Positions 3,820 to 23,264 of a stretch of DNA of 64,000 nucleotides are shown piece after piece. The DNA is from Alphaproteobacteria bacterium. Lineage in GTDB: Bacteria; Pseudomonadota; Alphaproteobacteria; JAEULC01. The notes below the pieces were generated by a model. It made no database searches. It worked only from the letters and a program-made list of their open reading frames with translations, and was not told the origin of the DNA. The stretch covers positions 22,899 to 86,898 of the forward strand of contig JAKLKW010000002.1 in assembly GCA_023150455.1 (NCBI GenBank), read 5' to 3'. The position numbers and the translations under genes are program-made. The number at the start of each line of letters is the position of its first letter. Position 1 is the first letter of the stretch.

Positions 3820-4290
3820 TTACGGCATGGCGTAGTCGTAGCGGATGAAGCCGTTGAAGCGCCCGACCTTGTCGTAGAGCGCGCGGGCCCGCGCGTTGTC
3901 TTGCTTGGTCTGCCAGTAGAGCTTGATCGCGCCGCGCTCCTTCGCCGCAGCCGCCACGTGCCCGATCAGGGCGCGCGCCACGCCGCGGCCGCGTACCGAT
4001 TCGTCGACGAACAGGTCCTGGAGATAGCAGACGTCCTCGGTCCAGGCGGCCGCATGAATCAGGTAATGCGCGATGCCGACCAGCTTGCCGTCGAGATCAG
4101 CGCCCAGGGCGTGCACGTCCTCGTTCCGGATCAGCCGCCGCCAGGTCGCGTCGTAGGCCCGATCGGGCAGCACGGTCTCGTAGAACGCCTTGTAGCCGCG
4201 CGCGAGGACCTCCCAGCGCGCACGGTCGGCGGCAGCGAGCGGGCGGATGACGGCCGCGCCGTGCCGGCCGGCCGCCGTGGCGCTATCCAA
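3820..4290 (-). CDS. GNAT family N-acetyltransferase
   Basis: 156 aa; IRPLAAADRARWEVL...LQDLFVDESVRGRGVARALIGHV acetyl-CoA binding motif. Confidence 0.9.
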   Translation of the reverse strand: MDSATAAGRHGAAVIRPLAAADRARWEVLARGYKAFYETVLPDRAYDATWRRLIRNEDVHALGADLDGKLVGIAHYLIHAAAWTEDVCYLQDLFVDESVRGRGVARALIGHVAAAAKERGAIKLYWQTKQDNARARALYDKVGRFNGFIRYDYAMP

Positions 4291-4939
4291 TCGAGAACCC
4301 GGTCACGTGCGCCGGCGGCTTCAGGCCCGGCTTGTTGCGCGGGTCGTCGATCGGCTGGCCGACGGTCAGGCGGATCGGAAGCACGCCGGCCCAGATGGGA
4401 AGCGCGTAGTCCTCATCGTCGTCCTTGGGCGGGCCCGCGCGCAGCTTGGCCGAGGCTTCCGTGATCGGCATCGTCAGCACCGTGGTCGCCTTCAGCTCCT
4501 GCCGGTTGGCCGGGCGCAGCATGTCCCAGCGGCCGGCGAACAGCCCGTCGACGAAGTTCCTGAGGCGCAGCTCCTTCTCGGCCGGATCGGCGACCTTGGC
4601 GGCGCGGCCCATCAGCATGACGGAGCGGTAGTTGACGGAGTGATGGAAGGCCGAGCGCGCCAGCACCAGCCCGTCCATCAGCGTGACGGCCATGCAGACC
4701 GGCGCGTCCTCCGCCGCCTCGAGCATGCGGCTGGCGGCCGAGCCGTGCCAGTAGACGTGGTCGCCCTCGCGCCACTGCAGCGTCGGAGTCACGATGGGCG
4801 CGCCGTCCAGCACATAGGCGACGTGCGCGAGCGGCATGGCGTCGAGCACGGCGTCGATCGCGGCGCGGTCGTAGCACCCGCGCTCGGGCAGTCGCTTGAC
4901 GCGCGTGCGCTCGGACGGGACGGCGCTGGCTCTGGACAT
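4283..4939 (-). CDS. Pyridoxamine 5'-phosphate oxidase family (FMN-binding split barrel) protein
   Basis: MSRASAVPSERTRVKRLPERGCYDRAAIDAVLDAMPLAHVAYVLDGAPIVTPTLQWREGDHVYWHGSAASRML; divergent from a MocR regulator. Confidence 0.85.
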   Translation of the reverse strand: MSRASAVPSERTRVKRLPERGCYDRAAIDAVLDAMPLAHVAYVLDGAPIVTPTLQWREGDHVYWHGSAASRMLEAAEDAPVCMAVTLMDGLVLARSAFHHSVNYRSVMLMGRAAKVADPAEKELRLRNFVDGLFAGRWDMLRPANRQELKATTVLTMPITEASAKLRAGPPKDDDEDYALPIWAGVLPIRLTVGQPIDDPRNKPGLKPPAHVTGFSIG

Positions 4940-5041
4940 CGGCCTCTCCTGCGGCAAGGGCGCGTCCTGGATAGGCCGCGATTGGTCCATGGCAAAGAGC
5001 CAATTTCTGATATACTGCATGGTCCATTTCCCGGAGACGCC

Positions 5042-6493
5042 ATGCCCCGGCCGACCGCCGATGCCCCGATCCTGTCGCTCGCCGTCGATGCGCGGGCGCG
5101 GGAGCCGGCCTATCTGCAGCTCTACGGGCAGCTGCGCGGGCTGATCCTGAGCGGCCGGCTCGGCGCGCGCGACCGGCTGCCGGCGACGCGGGCGCTGGCG
5201 GGCGAGCTCGGCCTTTCGCGCGGCACGGTGGTCAGCGCGTTCGAGCTGCTGCAGAGCGAGGGCTACATCGAGTCGCGCGTCGGCGCCGGCGCCCAGGTCG
5301 CGGCGCTGACGCCGGAGCACCTGCTGCAAGTCAACGCGCGCGCATCGCCGCCGCCGCGCGACGCGACGCCCGAGCCGGCGCGCCGGCCGCAGCCGCCGTT
5401 CCATCCCAATGCCGCGGCGCTCGACCAGTTCCCGCATCGCGACTGGGCGCGCGCCATGTGGACGGCGTGGCGCGACCCGCCGCTCGACCGCATGGGCAAT
5501 CCCGATCCGCAAGGGCACCTGCCGCTGCGCCGCGCGATCGCCGAGCATCTCGGCGCCTGGCGCGGCATCGCCTGCGCACCCGAGCAGGTGTTCGTGTTCT
5601 CCGGCATGACCGAGGGCATGGCGCTGGTCGGGCGGGCCCTGCTGTCGCCCGGCGACCTTGTGTGGCTCGAGGACCCGGGCTATCCGCTGCTCCACCGCGT
5701 CCTGGCGGCGCACGGATTCCGGCCGGCGCCGGTGCCGATCGACGCGGAGGGATTCGACCCGCGTCTGGCGCGCGCGACGGCGCCGCGCGCGCGCATGGCG
5801 GTGATCACGCCGTCGCATCAATACCCGCTCGGCCACACCATGCCGCTGCCGCGCCGCCTGGAGCTGCTCGACTGGGCGCGCCAGCAGGAAGGCTGGATCG
5901 TCGAGGACGACTATGCCAGCGAATACCGCTACGCCGGCCGGCCGCTCTCGGCGCTGATGAGCCTCGACGAGCGCGGCCGCGTGATCTACGCGGGCGCCTT
6001 CTCCAAGGTGCTGTTTCCCGCGCTCAGGCTCGGCTACGTGGTCGCGCCGCCGGCCATCCTGCCGCGGCTGCGCGCGGCGCTGGCGCGGCTCCCGGCACAG
6101 GCCTCGATCATGGCGCAGCCGGCCCTGGCCGAGTTCATGGCATCGGGCCAGTTCGCCGCGCATGTCAGGCGCATGCGCCGGCTCTATGCCGGACGCCAGA
6201 AGAAACTGCTGGAACTGCTGGCGCGCGAGCTCGACGGCACGCTGATCGCCGCGCCGGCCGAGGCCGGCATGCATCTCGTCGCGCGCCTGTCGCCCGGTCT
6301 GCGCATCAGGGATTGCGACCTGTCGGCGCGGGTCGCCGCGGCCGGGCTGGTGGCGCCCGCCCTGTCGTCCTACAGCCAGCTGAAGCGGCCGCCGCAGGGC
6401 CTGCTGCTCGGCTATGCGGGATTCGCCGAGGCCGCCTTGAGGGACGCCGTCCGGAGATTGGCCACAATCGTCGCGCAGTGTCGGCGCCGATGA
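5042..6493 (+). CDS. MocR-type (GntR-HTH plus aminotransferase class I) transcriptional regulator
   Basis: LQLYGQLRGLILSGRLGARDRLPATRALAGELGLSRGTVVSAFELLQSEGYI HTH fused to PLP aminotransferase fold (AGAFSKVLFPALRLGYVV). Confidence 0.92.
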   Translation: MPRPTADAPILSLAVDARAREPAYLQLYGQLRGLILSGRLGARDRLPATRALAGELGLSRGTVVSAFELLQSEGYIESRVGAGAQVAALTPEHLLQVNARASPPPRDATPEPARRPQPPFHPNAAALDQFPHRDWARAMWTAWRDPPLDRMGNPDPQGHLPLRRAIAEHLGAWRGIACAPEQVFVFSGMTEGMALVGRALLSPGDLVWLEDPGYPLLHRVLAAHGFRPAPVPIDAEGFDPRLARATAPRARMAVITPSHQYPLGHTMPLPRRLELLDWARQQEGWIVEDDYASEYRYAGRPLSALMSLDERGRVIYAGAFSKVLFPALRLGYVVAPPAILPRLRAALARLPAQASIMAQPALAEFMASGQFAAHVRRMRRLYAGRQKKLLELLARELDGTLIAAPAEAGMHLVARLSPGLRIRDCDLSARVAAAGLVAPALSSYSQLKRPPQGLLLGYAGFAEAALRDAVRRLATIVAQCRRR

Positions 6494-17329: not shown

Positions 17330-17426
17330 GCAAAAGGGCGGCCGGAGCCGCCCTTGCATTTTGTGCGTCACCGGCCGAAGCCGGGACGCTTGTTAACGGA
17401 TGGACCGCGTTCTCTCGTGAGCTAAC
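17330..17426 (-). ncRNA. Predicted type II-C tracrRNA
   Basis: Minus strand: GTTAGCTCACGAGAGAACGCGGTCCATCCGTTAACAAGCGTCCCGGCTTCGGCCGGTGACGCACAAAATGCAAGGGCGGCTCCGGCCGCCCTTTTG. Positions 17401-17426 are a 26-nt perfect anti-repeat to the CRISPR repeat; stem-loop GCGTC-CCGGC-TTCG-GCCGG-T-GACGC at 17365-17389; terminal hairpin at 17334-17355. Confidence 0.88.
17334..17355. terminator. Bidirectional hairpin between convergent adh and predicted tracrRNA
   Basis: AAGGGCGGC-CGGA-GCCGCCCTT, 9-bp perfect stem, 8 nt after adh stop; also forms the 3' terminal hairpin of the minus-strand tracrRNA. Confidence 0.8.
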
Positions 17427-17482
17427 TGACAGTCTATTCGCTTCCGTCCGTTCAATCTAACGTTGCCCCGCAGCAAACCGAC

Positions 17483-17518
17483 TGTCAATGGACTCCTGGG
17501 CGTCGGTCAGGCTACAAT
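17483..17518. promoter_or_regulatory. Candidate divergent promoter region between tracrRNA (minus) and cas9 (plus)
   Basis: Minus-strand TTGACA at 17488-17483 abuts plus-strand TGGACT (17489-17494), which is followed after 18 bp by TACAAT (17513-17518); the minus-strand -10 is weak by eye. Confidence 0.4.
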
Positions 17519-17682
17519 TTTTGTGGAACGGATCAACGGCAGCAATCAATCACGGATGCGTATGGTACAGCCGTGCCAATTCTGGCGAAGCTCACGAAGT
17601 GCGGCGACGCAAGTATACGCCCGTGAAGCAATGAGGAGTTGGAAACCAGCTCCCCGTTGACTCGCGCAGCTTGGGGGAAGAC

Positions 17683-20600
17683 ATGCGCGCGGAGAGGACA
17701 CGCAAGAGCATACCGTGGCGCCTCGGGCTCGATGTCGGCACCAATTCACTTGGCTGGTGCGCATTCGACCTGTCGAAGCCGGATAGGGAAGGGCGCCGTC
17801 ATCCGGTTGGCATTCGCCGGGTTGGGGTCCGTATCTTTAGCGATGGACGGGACCCGCAATCTGGAGCCTCGCTGGCGCAGGCGCGGCGCGAGCCGCGCAG
17901 CGCACGCAGGCGGCGCGATCGGTTCCTCATGCGGCAGATGACTCTCATGCGGGCGCTCGACCGTCTCGGCCTCATGCCGAGCGATCCTGCCGCACGCAAG
18001 GAACTCGAGAAGCTCGATCCCTGGCGCCTGCGCGCAGAGGGTCTCGAGCGCGCGCTCTCGCCCCACGAGTTCGGCCGTGTCCTGTTCCACCTAAATCAGC
18101 GCCGCGGCTTCAAGAGCAACCGCAAGACCGATCGCGGCAAGGACGAAGCCAGCGCCAAGGAAACCCAGGACATGAAGGGCTCGGCGCGGGCGACCGCGGC
18201 GCTGATCGGACCGGACAAGCCGAATGCCCGCACGCTCGGGGAATACCTCTACAAGACGTATCGCGCGCGAAACAACGGCCTCTCATGGGAGCCGTTGAGC
18301 TCGGCGGAAGCTCACAGCGTGCGGGCCCGTCCGCGTGCCGTGAAAGGGCGGAACGAATACGACTTCTACCCCCTGCGGCGCATGGTCGAGGACGAATTCG
18401 ACGCGCTTTGGGAGGCGCAGAGACGCCATCTTCCCGCGCTGACCAGTGAGACGCGCGAACGGATCCGGCACGTCATCTTTCATCAGCGGCAGCTCAAGCC
18501 GGTCGATCCTGGCCCCTGCACGCTTGATCCCGACGACAAGCGGGCGCCGCTTGCCCTGCCCATCGTGCAGGAATTTCGCATCCTGCAGGAGCTTGCCAAC
18601 CTCGAACTGGTCGACAAGCGCAATCCTTCGAACTCGCGCCGGCTCACGCTCAGGGAGCGGGACCACCTGCTCGCGCTGTTGCGACGCACGGAAAGGCTGA
18701 CCTTCAAGCGCATCCGCAAGGAGCTGCACATCGAGGCCGTCTGGGCCTTCAATCTTGAAAGCGAACGTCGCGATCACCTGAAAGGAGATAGCACGTCGGT
18801 CCGCCTCGCCCACAAGGAATGCTTCGGCCCCCGATGGTGGGACGGATTGGCGGACATCGAACGCCACACCATCGCTCAGAAGCTGCTCGACGAGGAAGAC
18901 GAGGACGAAGCGGTTCGGATCGGCGTCGAGTATTGGAACCTGTCGCCGGAGGCGGCCGAGAAGGTCGCCAACGTGCGGCTGGTAGATGGTTACGGCAGTC
19001 TCGGCACCAAGGCGCTGGAAGAGATCGTACCGATCATGCGGACAGGTTTCGACGGGAGTGGCAACCCGATTCGCTACAGCGACGCGGTGCAACGGACTCG
19101 CTACAAGCACCACTCCGATTTCCGCGACGCCACGATCCTGCCGGCGTTGCCCTACTATGGCGAGGTGCTGCGCCGATACATGGCGCCGGTCCGCAGCGAC
19201 TCGGCGCCGCAATGGGAGCGCGACTTCGGGCGTATTGCGAATCCAACCGTCCATATTGGATTGGGCCAGCTACGCAAGCTCGTCAACGCCCTGATTGATC
19301 GCTACGGCCACCCGGAGGAAATCGTCGTCGAGCTTGCACGTGACCTCAAGCTGTCACGCGAGCGCCGCGAGGAAATCGACAAACGCCAGGCGGAAAACCA
19401 GAGGAAAAACGATCAGCGGCGCGCGAAGCTGGCCGAAATCGGCTTACCCGAGCGCGGCGAGTCCCTGCTGCGCCTGCGGCTCTGGGAAGAACTGAACCCC
19501 AATGACCCGAGCGATCGCAAATGCGTTTACACTGGCGAGCAGATCTCGCTGAGCCGCCTGTTCAGCGATGACGTCGAGACCGAGCATATCCTTCCCTTCA
19601 CCCTGACGCTCGACGACAACCCGAGCAACCTGACCGTATCTTTGCGCAAAGCCAACCGCTTCAAGGGCAACCTCACGCCCCATCAAGCGTTCGGCAGCAA
19701 TCCCATGGTCGACGGCCGACCCTGCAACTGGCCCCAGATCATGCTGCGCGCGTCCGCGCTGCCGAAAGCCAAGCAGTGGCGGTTTCGGCCCGACGCGATT
19801 GAGCTGGTTCAGAGTCGGATCAGACGCGACGCGGCTCGGCAGGAAGGCGCGCTGCCGAAGGAAATGCTCGACGATATCGAGCGAACCGGCGGCTTCCTGG
19901 CGCGGCAACTCGTCGACACCGCCTACCTCGCCCGGGTCACCCGTCAGTATCTGTGGAAGATCTGCGACCCCGACAAGACCTGGGTGATCCCCGGCCAGAT
20001 GACCGCGCTCTTGCGCCGCAAATGGGGCCTCAACTCGCTGCTTGGCGACCACAACCGCAAGAACCGCGCCGACCATCGCCATCATGCGATCGACGCCTTC
20101 GTCACCGGGCTTACCGATCGCTCTCTGCTTCAGCGGATCGCGACGGCGGCCGAGAAATCAAGGGACCGCCTGATCGACGATATGCCTGATCCCTACGAAG
20201 GCTTCCGTGAGGAACTGAAGTCCGCCCTGCAGCGCGTCGTGGTCTCCCATCGGCCGGACCACAGCGCCAAAGGCAAGCTGCACGAAGAGACGGCCTACGG
20301 GCTGGTCGAAGAGGCGGAGCGCGAAGGCGGCAACGTCGTCGCGCGCAAGCCGATCGAGGCGCTGAGCGAGAGCGAGATCGACCGCGTTCGCGACCCGGTG
20401 ATCCGCGATAAGCTCAAACGACATCTCGGCAGATTGCTCGCATACGACTCAGGCATCGAACGGGCCAAGGCCAAACTCGCGGAGGCGCGGCGCAAGAAGG
20501 ACGCGCATGCGATCGAGCGGGCCGCCGCCGAGTTGGATCGCACCAAGCGCGAGCGCAAGCAGAGACGCAAGGATGGCGCCAAGGACTTCAGGGCGGCCCT

Positions 20601-21096
20601 GGCCGAGTTTGGCCGAAAGGAGGGCATACGGCGTGTGCGACTCGTGAAATCCGAAGCAGCGATCATTGCTGTCCGCGATCGAACTGGCCACCCATACAAA
20701 GCGTATAGCGCCGGCGACAACCATCGCGTCGAAGTTTTCGCAAGGCCGGATGGATCATGGGGCAGAGACCTCATTACCGTATTCGACGCGAACAGGCCCG
20801 ATTTTGCGCCTTCATGGCGTCGGAACGGAGCTGGCAACCGTCTCGTCGCAATCTTTCACAAGAACGATCTGGTGCGTGCCACAGTTGACGGCGAGGAACG
20901 GACCATGCGCGTCGTATCGCTGTGGGACCGCTACCTGCAGCTCGCAGGGCACGAGGACACCAACCTCGCCGATCGGTATCGCGACGGCGAATTCAAGTGG
21001 ACGTTCGCGAACTACGACAAACTCAAGGAAATGGGCCTTCGGCGCGTCACGGTGGACTTCCTCGGCCACATGCACGATCCCGGCCCGCCGAAGTGA
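17683..21096 (+). CDS. cas9: Type II-C CRISPR-associated endonuclease Cas9
   Basis: ATG at 17683 preceded by GGGGGAAG; RuvC-I LGLDVGTNSLGW, bridge helix RSARRRRDRFLMRQ, RuvC-II IVVELARDLKLSRERR, HNH VETEHILPFTLTLDDNPSNLTVSLRKANRFKGNLTP, RuvC-III ADHRHHAIDAFVTGL. Confidence 0.97.
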   Translation: MRAERTRKSIPWRLGLDVGTNSLGWCAFDLSKPDREGRRHPVGIRRVGVRIFSDGRDPQSGASLAQARREPRSARRRRDRFLMRQMTLMRALDRLGLMPSDPAARKELEKLDPWRLRAEGLERALSPHEFGRVLFHLNQRRGFKSNRKTDRGKDEASAKETQDMKGSARATAALIGPDKPNARTLGEYLYKTYRARNNGLSWEPLSSAEAHSVRARPRAVKGRNEYDFYPLRRMVEDEFDALWEAQRRHLPALTSETRERIRHVIFHQRQLKPVDPGPCTLDPDDKRAPLALPIVQEFRILQELANLELVDKRNPSNSRRLTLRERDHLLALLRRTERLTFKRIRKELHIEAVWAFNLESERRDHLKGDSTSVRLAHKECFGPRWWDGLADIERHTIAQKLLDEEDEDEAVRIGVEYWNLSPEAAEKVANVRLVDGYGSLGTKALEEIVPIMRTGFDGSGNPIRYSDAVQRTRYKHHSDFRDATILPALPYYGEVLRRYMAPVRSDSAPQWERDFGRIANPTVHIGLGQLRKLVNALIDRYGHPEEIVVELARDLKLSRERREEIDKRQAENQRKNDQRRAKLAEIGLPERGESLLRLRLWEELNPNDPSDRKCVYTGEQISLSRLFSDDVETEHILPFTLTLDDNPSNLTVSLRKANRFKGNLTPHQAFGSNPMVDGRPCNWPQIMLRASALPKAKQWRFRPDAIELVQSRIRRDAARQEGALPKEMLDDIERTGGFLARQLVDTAYLARVTRQYLWKICDPDKTWVIPGQMTALLRRKWGLNSLLGDHNRKNRADHRHHAIDAFVTGLTDRSLLQRIATAAEKSRDRLIDDMPDPYEGFREELKSALQRVVVSHRPDHSAKGKLHEETAYGLVEEAEREGGNVVARKPIEALSESEIDRVRDPVIRDKLKRHLGRLLAYDSGIERAKAKLAEARRKKDAHAIERAAAELDRTKRERKQRRKDGAKDFRAALAEFGRKEGIRRVRLVKSEAAIIAVRDRTGHPYKAYSAGDNHRVEVFARPDGSWGRDLITVFDANRPDFAPSWRRNGAGNRLVAIFHKNDLVRATVDGEERTMRVVSLWDRYLQLAGHEDTNLADRYRDGEFKWTFANYDKLKEMGLRRVTVDFLGHMHDPGPPK

Positions 21097-21102
21097 TCCG
21101 AC

Positions 21103-22029
21103 ATGCTCGGGCGCATCATTGAAATCGCAGAGGATGGACGCCATCTAGCGGTCGATCGCGGCTTCATGACGGTGAGCACCGATGGCGCCGAGCTTGGAAG
21201 AGTCCCGCTCGACGACATCGGCGCCGTGATTGTCAATGCCCACGGCTGCACGTACAGCAACAACCTGATTGTGCGATTGGCCGAACGTGGCGCGGGGGTG
21301 GTCGTCTGCGGCGCCAACCATAGCCCGGTGGCCTGGCTATGGCCGGTCGTGGCCCATCACGCACAACGCAGCCGCATCGAGTCGCAAATCGTCGCCGGAA
21401 AGCCGCTTGCGAAGCGCCTGTGGCAACGCGTGGTTCAGCAGAAGATTCGCCTTCAGGGCGCGACTCTTGCCGCTCTCGGCCGCGACGGTGCGGGCGGATT
21501 CGATCTGATGGCACGACGCGTAGGGTCAGGAGATCCGGAGAACATGGAGGCACAGGCAGCACGTCGCTATTGGCCATTGCTGTTCGGCGCCGATTTCCGC
21601 CGCGACCGCGAGGCTCCGGGAGCCAATTCGATGCTGAACTATGGCTATGCGGTCCTGCGGTCGGCGACGGCGCGCGCAGTCTGCGGCGCCGGTCTGCATC
21701 CGGCGATCGGGATCAGTCACAAGAGCGAGGACCTGCCTTTGGCTGACGACCTGATGGAGCCGTTCAGGCCAATGGTCGATCTGCTGGTGGCGCGCGCCGC
21801 GGACATGGGACACGAGAGCGTCACCAAGGAGATTAAGCGGTATCTGGCGTCGGTGGCCGCGCTCGATCTCCAGACGGAGCGGGGACGCACCCCGCTCTAT
21901 ACGTGCGTTGAACGACTTGCACAGTCGCTCGCTGCCGCCTTCGCTAGCGGAAAGCCTGACTTGGAGTTTCCCTTGGCACCTTTGCCGCTGGACCTGCCAG
22001 CGCTGCCTGCTTCGGCCGACGATTCGTGA
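21103..22029 (+). CDS. cas1: Type II CRISPR-associated endonuclease Cas1
   Basis: 308 aa; MLGRIIEIAEDGRHLAVDRGFMTV...LPLDDIGAVIVNAHGCTYSNNLIVRLAERGAGVVVCGANHSPVAW; immediately downstream of cas9. Confidence 0.95.
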   Translation: MLGRIIEIAEDGRHLAVDRGFMTVSTDGAELGRVPLDDIGAVIVNAHGCTYSNNLIVRLAERGAGVVVCGANHSPVAWLWPVVAHHAQRSRIESQIVAGKPLAKRLWQRVVQQKIRLQGATLAALGRDGAGGFDLMARRVGSGDPENMEAQAARRYWPLLFGADFRRDREAPGANSMLNYGYAVLRSATARAVCGAGLHPAIGISHKSEDLPLADDLMEPFRPMVDLLVARAADMGHESVTKEIKRYLASVAALDLQTERGRTPLYTCVERLAQSLAAAFASGKPDLEFPLAPLPLDLPALPASADDS

Positions 22030-22041
22030 GCGGTCGAGGCC

Positions 22042-22368
22042 GTGCTGACCGGCTATCGCCTAATGTGGATGATGGTCCTCTTCGACCTGCCGGTCGGCAC
22101 GAAAAAAGAGCGCAAGGCTGCAACGAAATTCCGCCAGTTCCTCCTCGACCAGGGATTCCAAATGTCGCAATACTCGGTCTACATGCGATTTTGTGCCGGA
22201 AAGGAACAGTCAGAGGCTTACACAAAGAAGGTCGAGAAGGAGGTGCCAAGCACGGGCAAGATTCACATCGTCTACCTGACCGACAAACAGTATGAGAACA
22301 TCGTTACATTCGACGGACGAGTGAAGGAACCTACCCGGAAAAACCCGGAACAGTTCGTGTTGTTCTAA
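22042..22368 (+). CDS. cas2: CRISPR-associated endoribonuclease Cas2
   Basis: 108 aa from GTG; YRLMWMMVLFDLPVGTKKERKAATKFRQFLLDQGFQMSQYSVYMRFC...IHIVYLTDKQYENIVTF. Confidence 0.95.
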   Translation: MLTGYRLMWMMVLFDLPVGTKKERKAATKFRQFLLDQGFQMSQYSVYMRFCAGKEQSEAYTKKVEKEVPSTGKIHIVYLTDKQYENIVTFDGRVKEPTRKNPEQFVLF

Positions 22369-22404
22369 TGTATGTGGCTGCGAACAAACGGCGACCCGGA
22401 AGGG

Positions 22405-22430
22405 AAAAAAGGCCCTGTTACCAGGGCCTT
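22405..22430 (-). terminator. Intrinsic terminator at the cas2-proximal end of the CRISPR array (minus-strand reading)
   Basis: Minus strand AAGGCCCTG-GTAA-CAGGGCCTT-TTTT, 9-bp stem followed by T-tract; orientation supports array transcription on the minus strand. Confidence 0.75.
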
Positions 22431-22441
22431 AGCGGATCATG

Positions 22442-22543
22442 AGGTTAGCTCACGAGAGAACGCGGTCCAACCGCAACCACCCGGTCGAACCGCGCGACCG
22501 TCAGGGGAGGTTAGCTCACGAGAGAACGCGGTCCAACCGCAAC
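22442..22543 (-). CRISPR. Minimal CRISPR array: 2 identical repeats, 1 spacer
   Basis: Identical repeats at 22442-22477 and 22508-22543 (36 bp; minus strand GTTGCGGTTGGACCGCGTTCTCTCGTGAGCTAACCT) flanking a 30-nt spacer 22478-22507; period 66 bp; repeat matches the anti-repeat upstream of cas9. Confidence 0.93.
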
Positions 22544-22566
22544 GGATCGCTTCGCGATCCGTTGCG
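22538..22566. repeat. Perfect hairpin spanning the repeat/flank junction of the array
   Basis: CGCAACGGATCGC-TTC-GCGATCCGTTGCG, 13-bp stem, 3-nt loop; one arm overlaps the terminal 6 nt of repeat 2. Confidence 0.8.
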
Positions 22567-22603: not shown

Positions 22604-22960
22604 TCAGTTCAAAGAACCACCGCCAATGGCGGTGAGAATCGCGCTCATCTTCGCCCGCACGTCGGGCAGGAACGTGGTCACCACCGACCAGACCACCTCG
22701 AACTCGACGTCCTGATAGTCATGGACAATAACGTTGCGCATGCCGACGATCTTCTGCCACGGGATTTCGGGATGTTCAGATTGAAACTCGGCGGATATCC
22801 GTCGGCAGGCTTCGCCGACGATCTGGAGCTGGCGCAAGACGGCCGATTGAACCAGCGGGTCCTTCAGGAACCGTTCGAAGCTGTAACCGTCCGTGAATGA
22901 CGCGACGAGCTCGGCCGCCCTGACGACATCAGCCAGGTAGTCCGCATCACGCCATTTCAT
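22604..22960 (-). CDS. hepT: HepT-like HEPN-domain ribonuclease toxin (DUF86)
   Basis: 118 aa; MRNVIVHDYQDVEFEVVW contains the RX4HXY (RNVIVHDY) HepT motif; overlaps upstream MNT gene. Confidence 0.9.
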   Translation of the reverse strand: MKWRDADYLADVVRAAELVASFTDGYSFERFLKDPLVQSAVLRQLQIVGEACRRISAEFQSEHPEIPWQKIVGMRNVIVHDYQDVEFEVVWSVVTTFLPDVRAKMSAILTAIGGGSLN

Positions 22961-23264
22961 AGACGGTCTGGGCGGAATCGAGGATGTGCTGCTTGCGCAG
23001 TGGATTCCGGCTGCGCTCGATCGCCTGCCGCGTCATGAGATCGACGCGACGCCCAAACAGGCGTTCGAGCGCTTCCTTCGTGTCGAGGAAGTGCGTCAGG
23101 TCGAGCACCAGGTCCCGCTCGAACATCACCAGCACGTCCACGTCGCTGTCGGGCCGGAACTCGTCCGTGAGGACCGAGCCGAACAGCGCCAGCTCCGCGA
23201 TCTTCCATTTCTTGCAGAACGCGGCAAGCTCTCCCTTCGGGATCCTGATGCGCGGCTCGGGCAT
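22947..23264 (-). CDS. mntA: MntA-like minimal nucleotidyltransferase antitoxin
   Basis: 105 aa; MPEPRIRIPKGELAAFCKKWKIAELALFGSVLTDEFRPDSDVDVLVMFE with GSx(n)DxD nucleotidyltransferase motif; 14-bp overlap with hepT. Confidence 0.9.
   Translation of the reverse strand: MPEPRIRIPKGELAAFCKKWKIAELALFGSVLTDEFRPDSDVDVLVMFERDLVLDLTHFLDTKEALERLFGRRVDLMTRQAIERSRNPLRKQHILDSAQTVYEMA

Follow-up and report, generated by a model that had tools for sequence, protein, structure and literature searches.

In the type II-C CRISPR-Cas systems, new spacers enter the array at its last repeat, and each repeat carries its own promoter (PMC12080349). Helices and repeat mutations are among three ways in which these systems may block the extraneous crRNA (Feussner et al. 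2025, PMC12080349). The metagenomic EHCas9, to which the locus considered here is likened by description, likewise belongs to a II-C system with a compact Cas9, and a two-repeat, one-spacer array was used in its tests; its PAM, NGG, is not transferable to the present Cas9 (PMC10281378). The characterised II-C Cas9s with solved structures share the RuvC, the HNH and the overall domain order with this enzyme, but are distant from it in sequence. Among the II-C loci of the host's own class, the best match (locus L048, in genome G069) likewise has a divergent upstream tracrRNA, the order cas9-cas1-cas2, 36-nt repeats, and a 66-nt unit.

The window, which is the whole 64,000-nucleotide stretch of alphaproteobacterial DNA analysed, carries a II-C locus at 17333-22566, formed by a tracrRNA gene on the minus strand, cas9, cas1, cas2, and an array of two repeats and one spacer. 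Given that the same layout and the 66-nt unit recur across the host's class, with G069 as the best match, the locus is of a known kind. It is complete and ordinary for a II-C locus, with some instructive details, and is apparently intact; it is very probably a CRISPR-Cas9 adaptive immune locus of type II-C, acquired horizontally, and what mainly sets it apart is that its memory array holds a single spacer. The preliminary description had delimited it at 17330-22566, and the locus stands as described there, although the array itself ends at 22543, with the second repeat in forward order, and 22566 is the end of an abutting hairpin.

The cas9, cas1 and cas2 genes are contiguous and all lie on the plus strand. 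The cas9 gene (17683..21096; 1137 aa), for which an ATG start is preferred to the upstream TTG at 17671, scores 565.9 bits against TIGR01865 (cut-off 100), and the RuvC_III, HNH_4 and Cas9_a domains are found in its product. It is followed by cas1 (21103..22029; 308 aa), of type II (225.2 bits against TIGR03639, the type II Cas1 family, with a cut-off of 120; Cas1_II in PADLOC), and by cas2 (22042..22368; 108 aa, GTG start), which reaches 71.3 bits against TIGR01573 (cut-off 24.5) and is classed as Cas2_II by PADLOC. The profile search proposed in the preliminary description thus places all three genes above the curated cut-offs. The type II-C arrangement that it had read, with neither csn2 nor cas4, is borne out by this adjacency, by the family scores, and by the lack of space, since no further gene fits between the cas genes and the gap between cas2 and hepT is only 236 bases long and filled by the array. 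A genome-wide search for Csn2 gave no match, and the control genomes were likewise without one.

The nuclease motifs said to be readable in the translation hold up when 28 Cas9 sequences (that of the window and 27 homologues) are aligned: seven catalytic residues are invariant in all 28, namely D17, E550, H801 and D804 of the RuvC domain, and H635, N649 and N658 of the HNH domain. The eighth catalytic position, 634, is E in the window Cas9 and either D or E among the homologues, so E634 is no defect. In the Cas9 tree, built from homologues of the host's class and one other II-C-like locus, the window enzyme pairs with that of G069 at full support, and this closest Cas9 is 65-66% identical overall and 63% identical in the WED/PAM-interacting part. 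A scan of the genome contigs returned one relative, 46% identical. The nearest solved structures by sequence are 9ar4 and 8jtj, followed by 6jdq, with partial matches split into stretches; these are probably the ThermoCas9/GeoCas9 and Neisseria meningitidis enzymes, which belong to II-C.

The divergent tracrRNA predicted upstream is well supported. Its gene lies on the minus strand at 17333..17428, with putative precise ends, and comprises an anti-repeat (17397-17426) that matches the repeat at 29/30 positions, the conserved CCGTTAAC adjoining it, a hairpin (17365-17389), and, as the last of the hairpins after the anti-repeat, an intrinsic terminator (17334-17355). The fold of this candidate has a z of -4.06, with 0/200 shuffles as good, and the repeat:tracrRNA duplex is predicted at -63.4 kcal/mol. 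The CCGTTAACAAG and CACAAAATG motifs are common to the relatives. The near-perfect anti-repeat was considered as an unusual trait, and dropped, given that the relatives show the same, including G069, with 31/32. Rfam returned just two matches, both far below the gathering score.

Downstream, the minimal array with a matching repeat is confirmed as two identical repeats in a 66-nt unit (the 36+30 of the relatives) with one spacer, all read here on the minus strand: repeat 2, proximal to cas2 (22442..22477), the only spacer (22478..22507, 30 nt), and repeat 1, which is the outer, "extra" copy (22508..22543). The repeat length of 36 nt comes from comparison with the relatives, the two copies having 37 identical bases as aligned. 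No further copy of the repeat core was recovered elsewhere in the draft genome (279 contigs) with up to three mismatches. Beside cas2, a 9-bp stem followed by TTTTTT (22409..22430, minus strand) forms a probable terminator, and many relatives, such as G069, have a hairpin and T-run at the matching place. A comparison of the repeats and flanking sequences of the relatives indicates that the crRNA would be read from the minus strand, opposite to the cas genes, up to this terminator. Many relatives have a mutated outermost repeat and perfect repeats near cas2, which is consistent with the entry of spacers at the last repeat (PMC12080349) and suggests that the array grows at its cas2-proximal repeat, where Cas1 and Cas2 would insert new spacers.

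Transcription of the crRNA may start from a promoter-like sequence that lies within repeat 1, or may result from read-through. This sequence is weak in the window repeat (TGGACC, 16 nt, TAACCT, with 4/6 matches at -35 and 3/6 at -10), and good in L069 and L070 (TTGACC or TTGACT, 16 nt, TATAAT). A HepT-like/MntA-like toxin-antitoxin pair lies directly beyond the array, on the minus strand at 22604-23261, reading toward it, and its matches fall under the NCBIfam cut-offs and over those of Pfam; read-through from this pair could reach the array. In one of the relatives, L060 (array at 3923-5277), a tRNA-gene-like sequence immediately adjoins the array on its outer side.

The weakness of this promoter-like sequence and the lack of a convincing target for the one spacer are the points that count against the immune-locus reading. 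In the host's own genome, the 29 nt searched had no other match with up to three mismatches, and the array, searched against phages and plasmids, returned weak matches only, with no convincing protospacer. Three exact matches in viral contigs to an 18-nt stretch on the PAM side of the spacer were judged to be chance, just 20-22 of the 29 nt being matched. The target search was extended to spacers of G069, whose Cas9 is 63% identical to that of the window in the PAM-interacting region; four of them had no viral match, and one of the two G069 arrays had no plausible target in phages or plasmids. The PAM is therefore not deducible from the sequence, as the preliminary description had stated.

These same features would be expected of a decaying or silent II-C locus, in which the reading frames persist, but an array reduced to one spacer no longer confers useful immunity, and the single spacer, the weak promoter-like sequence and the searches without a match all speak for it. 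Decay is nevertheless unlikely, given that cas9, cas1 and cas2 are intact, with the catalytic residues of cas9 conserved, that both repeats are identical, and that the anti-repeat still matches at 29/30 positions. It is far less probable still that the spacer, alone between its two perfect repeats, serves as a dedicated guide to a host or mobile-element site, rather than as part of a growing memory, given the retention of cas1 and cas2, the 27 spacers of G069, and the own-genome search, which would have left room for a short partial match. Those 27 spacers, compared with one in the window, are held in two arrays of the same repeat, approximately 1.4 kb apart (L048:10917-14302).

In the adaptive immune locus favoured here, Cas9 would be loaded with a duplex of the tracrRNA (17428 to 17333 on the minus strand) and a crRNA that comprises the single spacer and repeat 2 and ends at the terminator at 22409-22430. 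The loaded enzyme would then cut matching DNA through its HNH and RuvC sites. Repeat 1 would, in turn, yield an extraneous guide RNA, and a perfect 13-bp stem with a 3-nt loop (22538..22566, minus strand) overlaps the first six bases of this repeat. This hairpin was reached by 0/300 base shuffles, and its sequence is single copy in the genome, which rules out a dispersed repeat. In G069, too, the array has a long hairpin on its outer side, with an 18-bp stem at the same place, whereas most of the other relatives tested lack one, and many of these have a mutated outer repeat instead. The hairpin appears to cover the guide of the extraneous crRNA, and would mask and so silence it, rather than terminate transcription, given that no T-run follows the stem. 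With the control described by Feussner et al. (2025, PMC12080349) the locus shares a helix over the guide part of the extra repeat, a probable entry of spacers at the last repeat, and a promoter-like, though weak, sequence in the repeats; it differs in that no T-run follows its stem, whose masking role is predicted. A masking hairpin is not a new idea, since such helices are already named in that study.

The origin of the locus can be approached through three congeners (G001, G002 and G003), none of which has it at this site. In G002, no gene separates an alcohol dehydrogenase gene from a hepT-like one, and mntA and glmS come next; in G003, an aldehyde dehydrogenase gene adjoins glmS, and in G001, approximately 530 bases stand where the window has the island. 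The lower G+C content noted for the cas region is real, at around 63%, compared with around 70% in its surroundings. The idea of a horizontally acquired island is now also backed by the congeners that lack it between the same flanking genes, and both lines of evidence favour acquisition by this genome, which is the presumed direction of transfer, loss of the locus from the congeners being less probable. The hepT-like gene of G002 (G002:C129:4333-4772, L085) is not alignable at the DNA level with that of the window, and mntA is 82-84% identical between the two right from its start, a pattern that would fit a replacement of hepT along with the island.

The same genome contains a second cas9-cas1-cas2 locus (L045:8383-11354; G000:C104), whose array runs off the end of the contig. 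Neither this locus nor the strand, growing end and outer hairpin of the window array figured in the preliminary description. The repeat of the second locus differs from that of the window and is identical to that of the congener G002. Compared with that of G002, the cas9 of this second locus lacks 73 nt near position 10059 of L045, through a single deletion, either real or an assembly error, in which the HNH histidine motif and core are lost and the frame is shifted; the remaining gaps within the gene all have lengths divisible by three. Repeat:tracrRNA pairing is predicted at -25.8 and -14.5 kcal/mol between the loci, and at -63.4 and -52.1 kcal/mol within them, and with cross-locus pairing so much weaker, the two systems look orthogonal. 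These observations might represent a turnover of CRISPR systems in progress, in which the cas9 of the II-C system shared with G002 was deprived of its HNH core in this genome and an orthogonal, acquired one-spacer II-C system with a hairpin-masked extra repeat took over, but this scenario is rather doubtful.

As a biological discovery, the locus is routine; its contribution is a further intact II-C Cas9 for which a guide scaffold can be clearly predicted. The masking of the extraneous crRNA would matter most in a one-spacer array, and given that this RNA could be half of all the guides, the two-repeat array offers the simplest test of how such systems suppress it.
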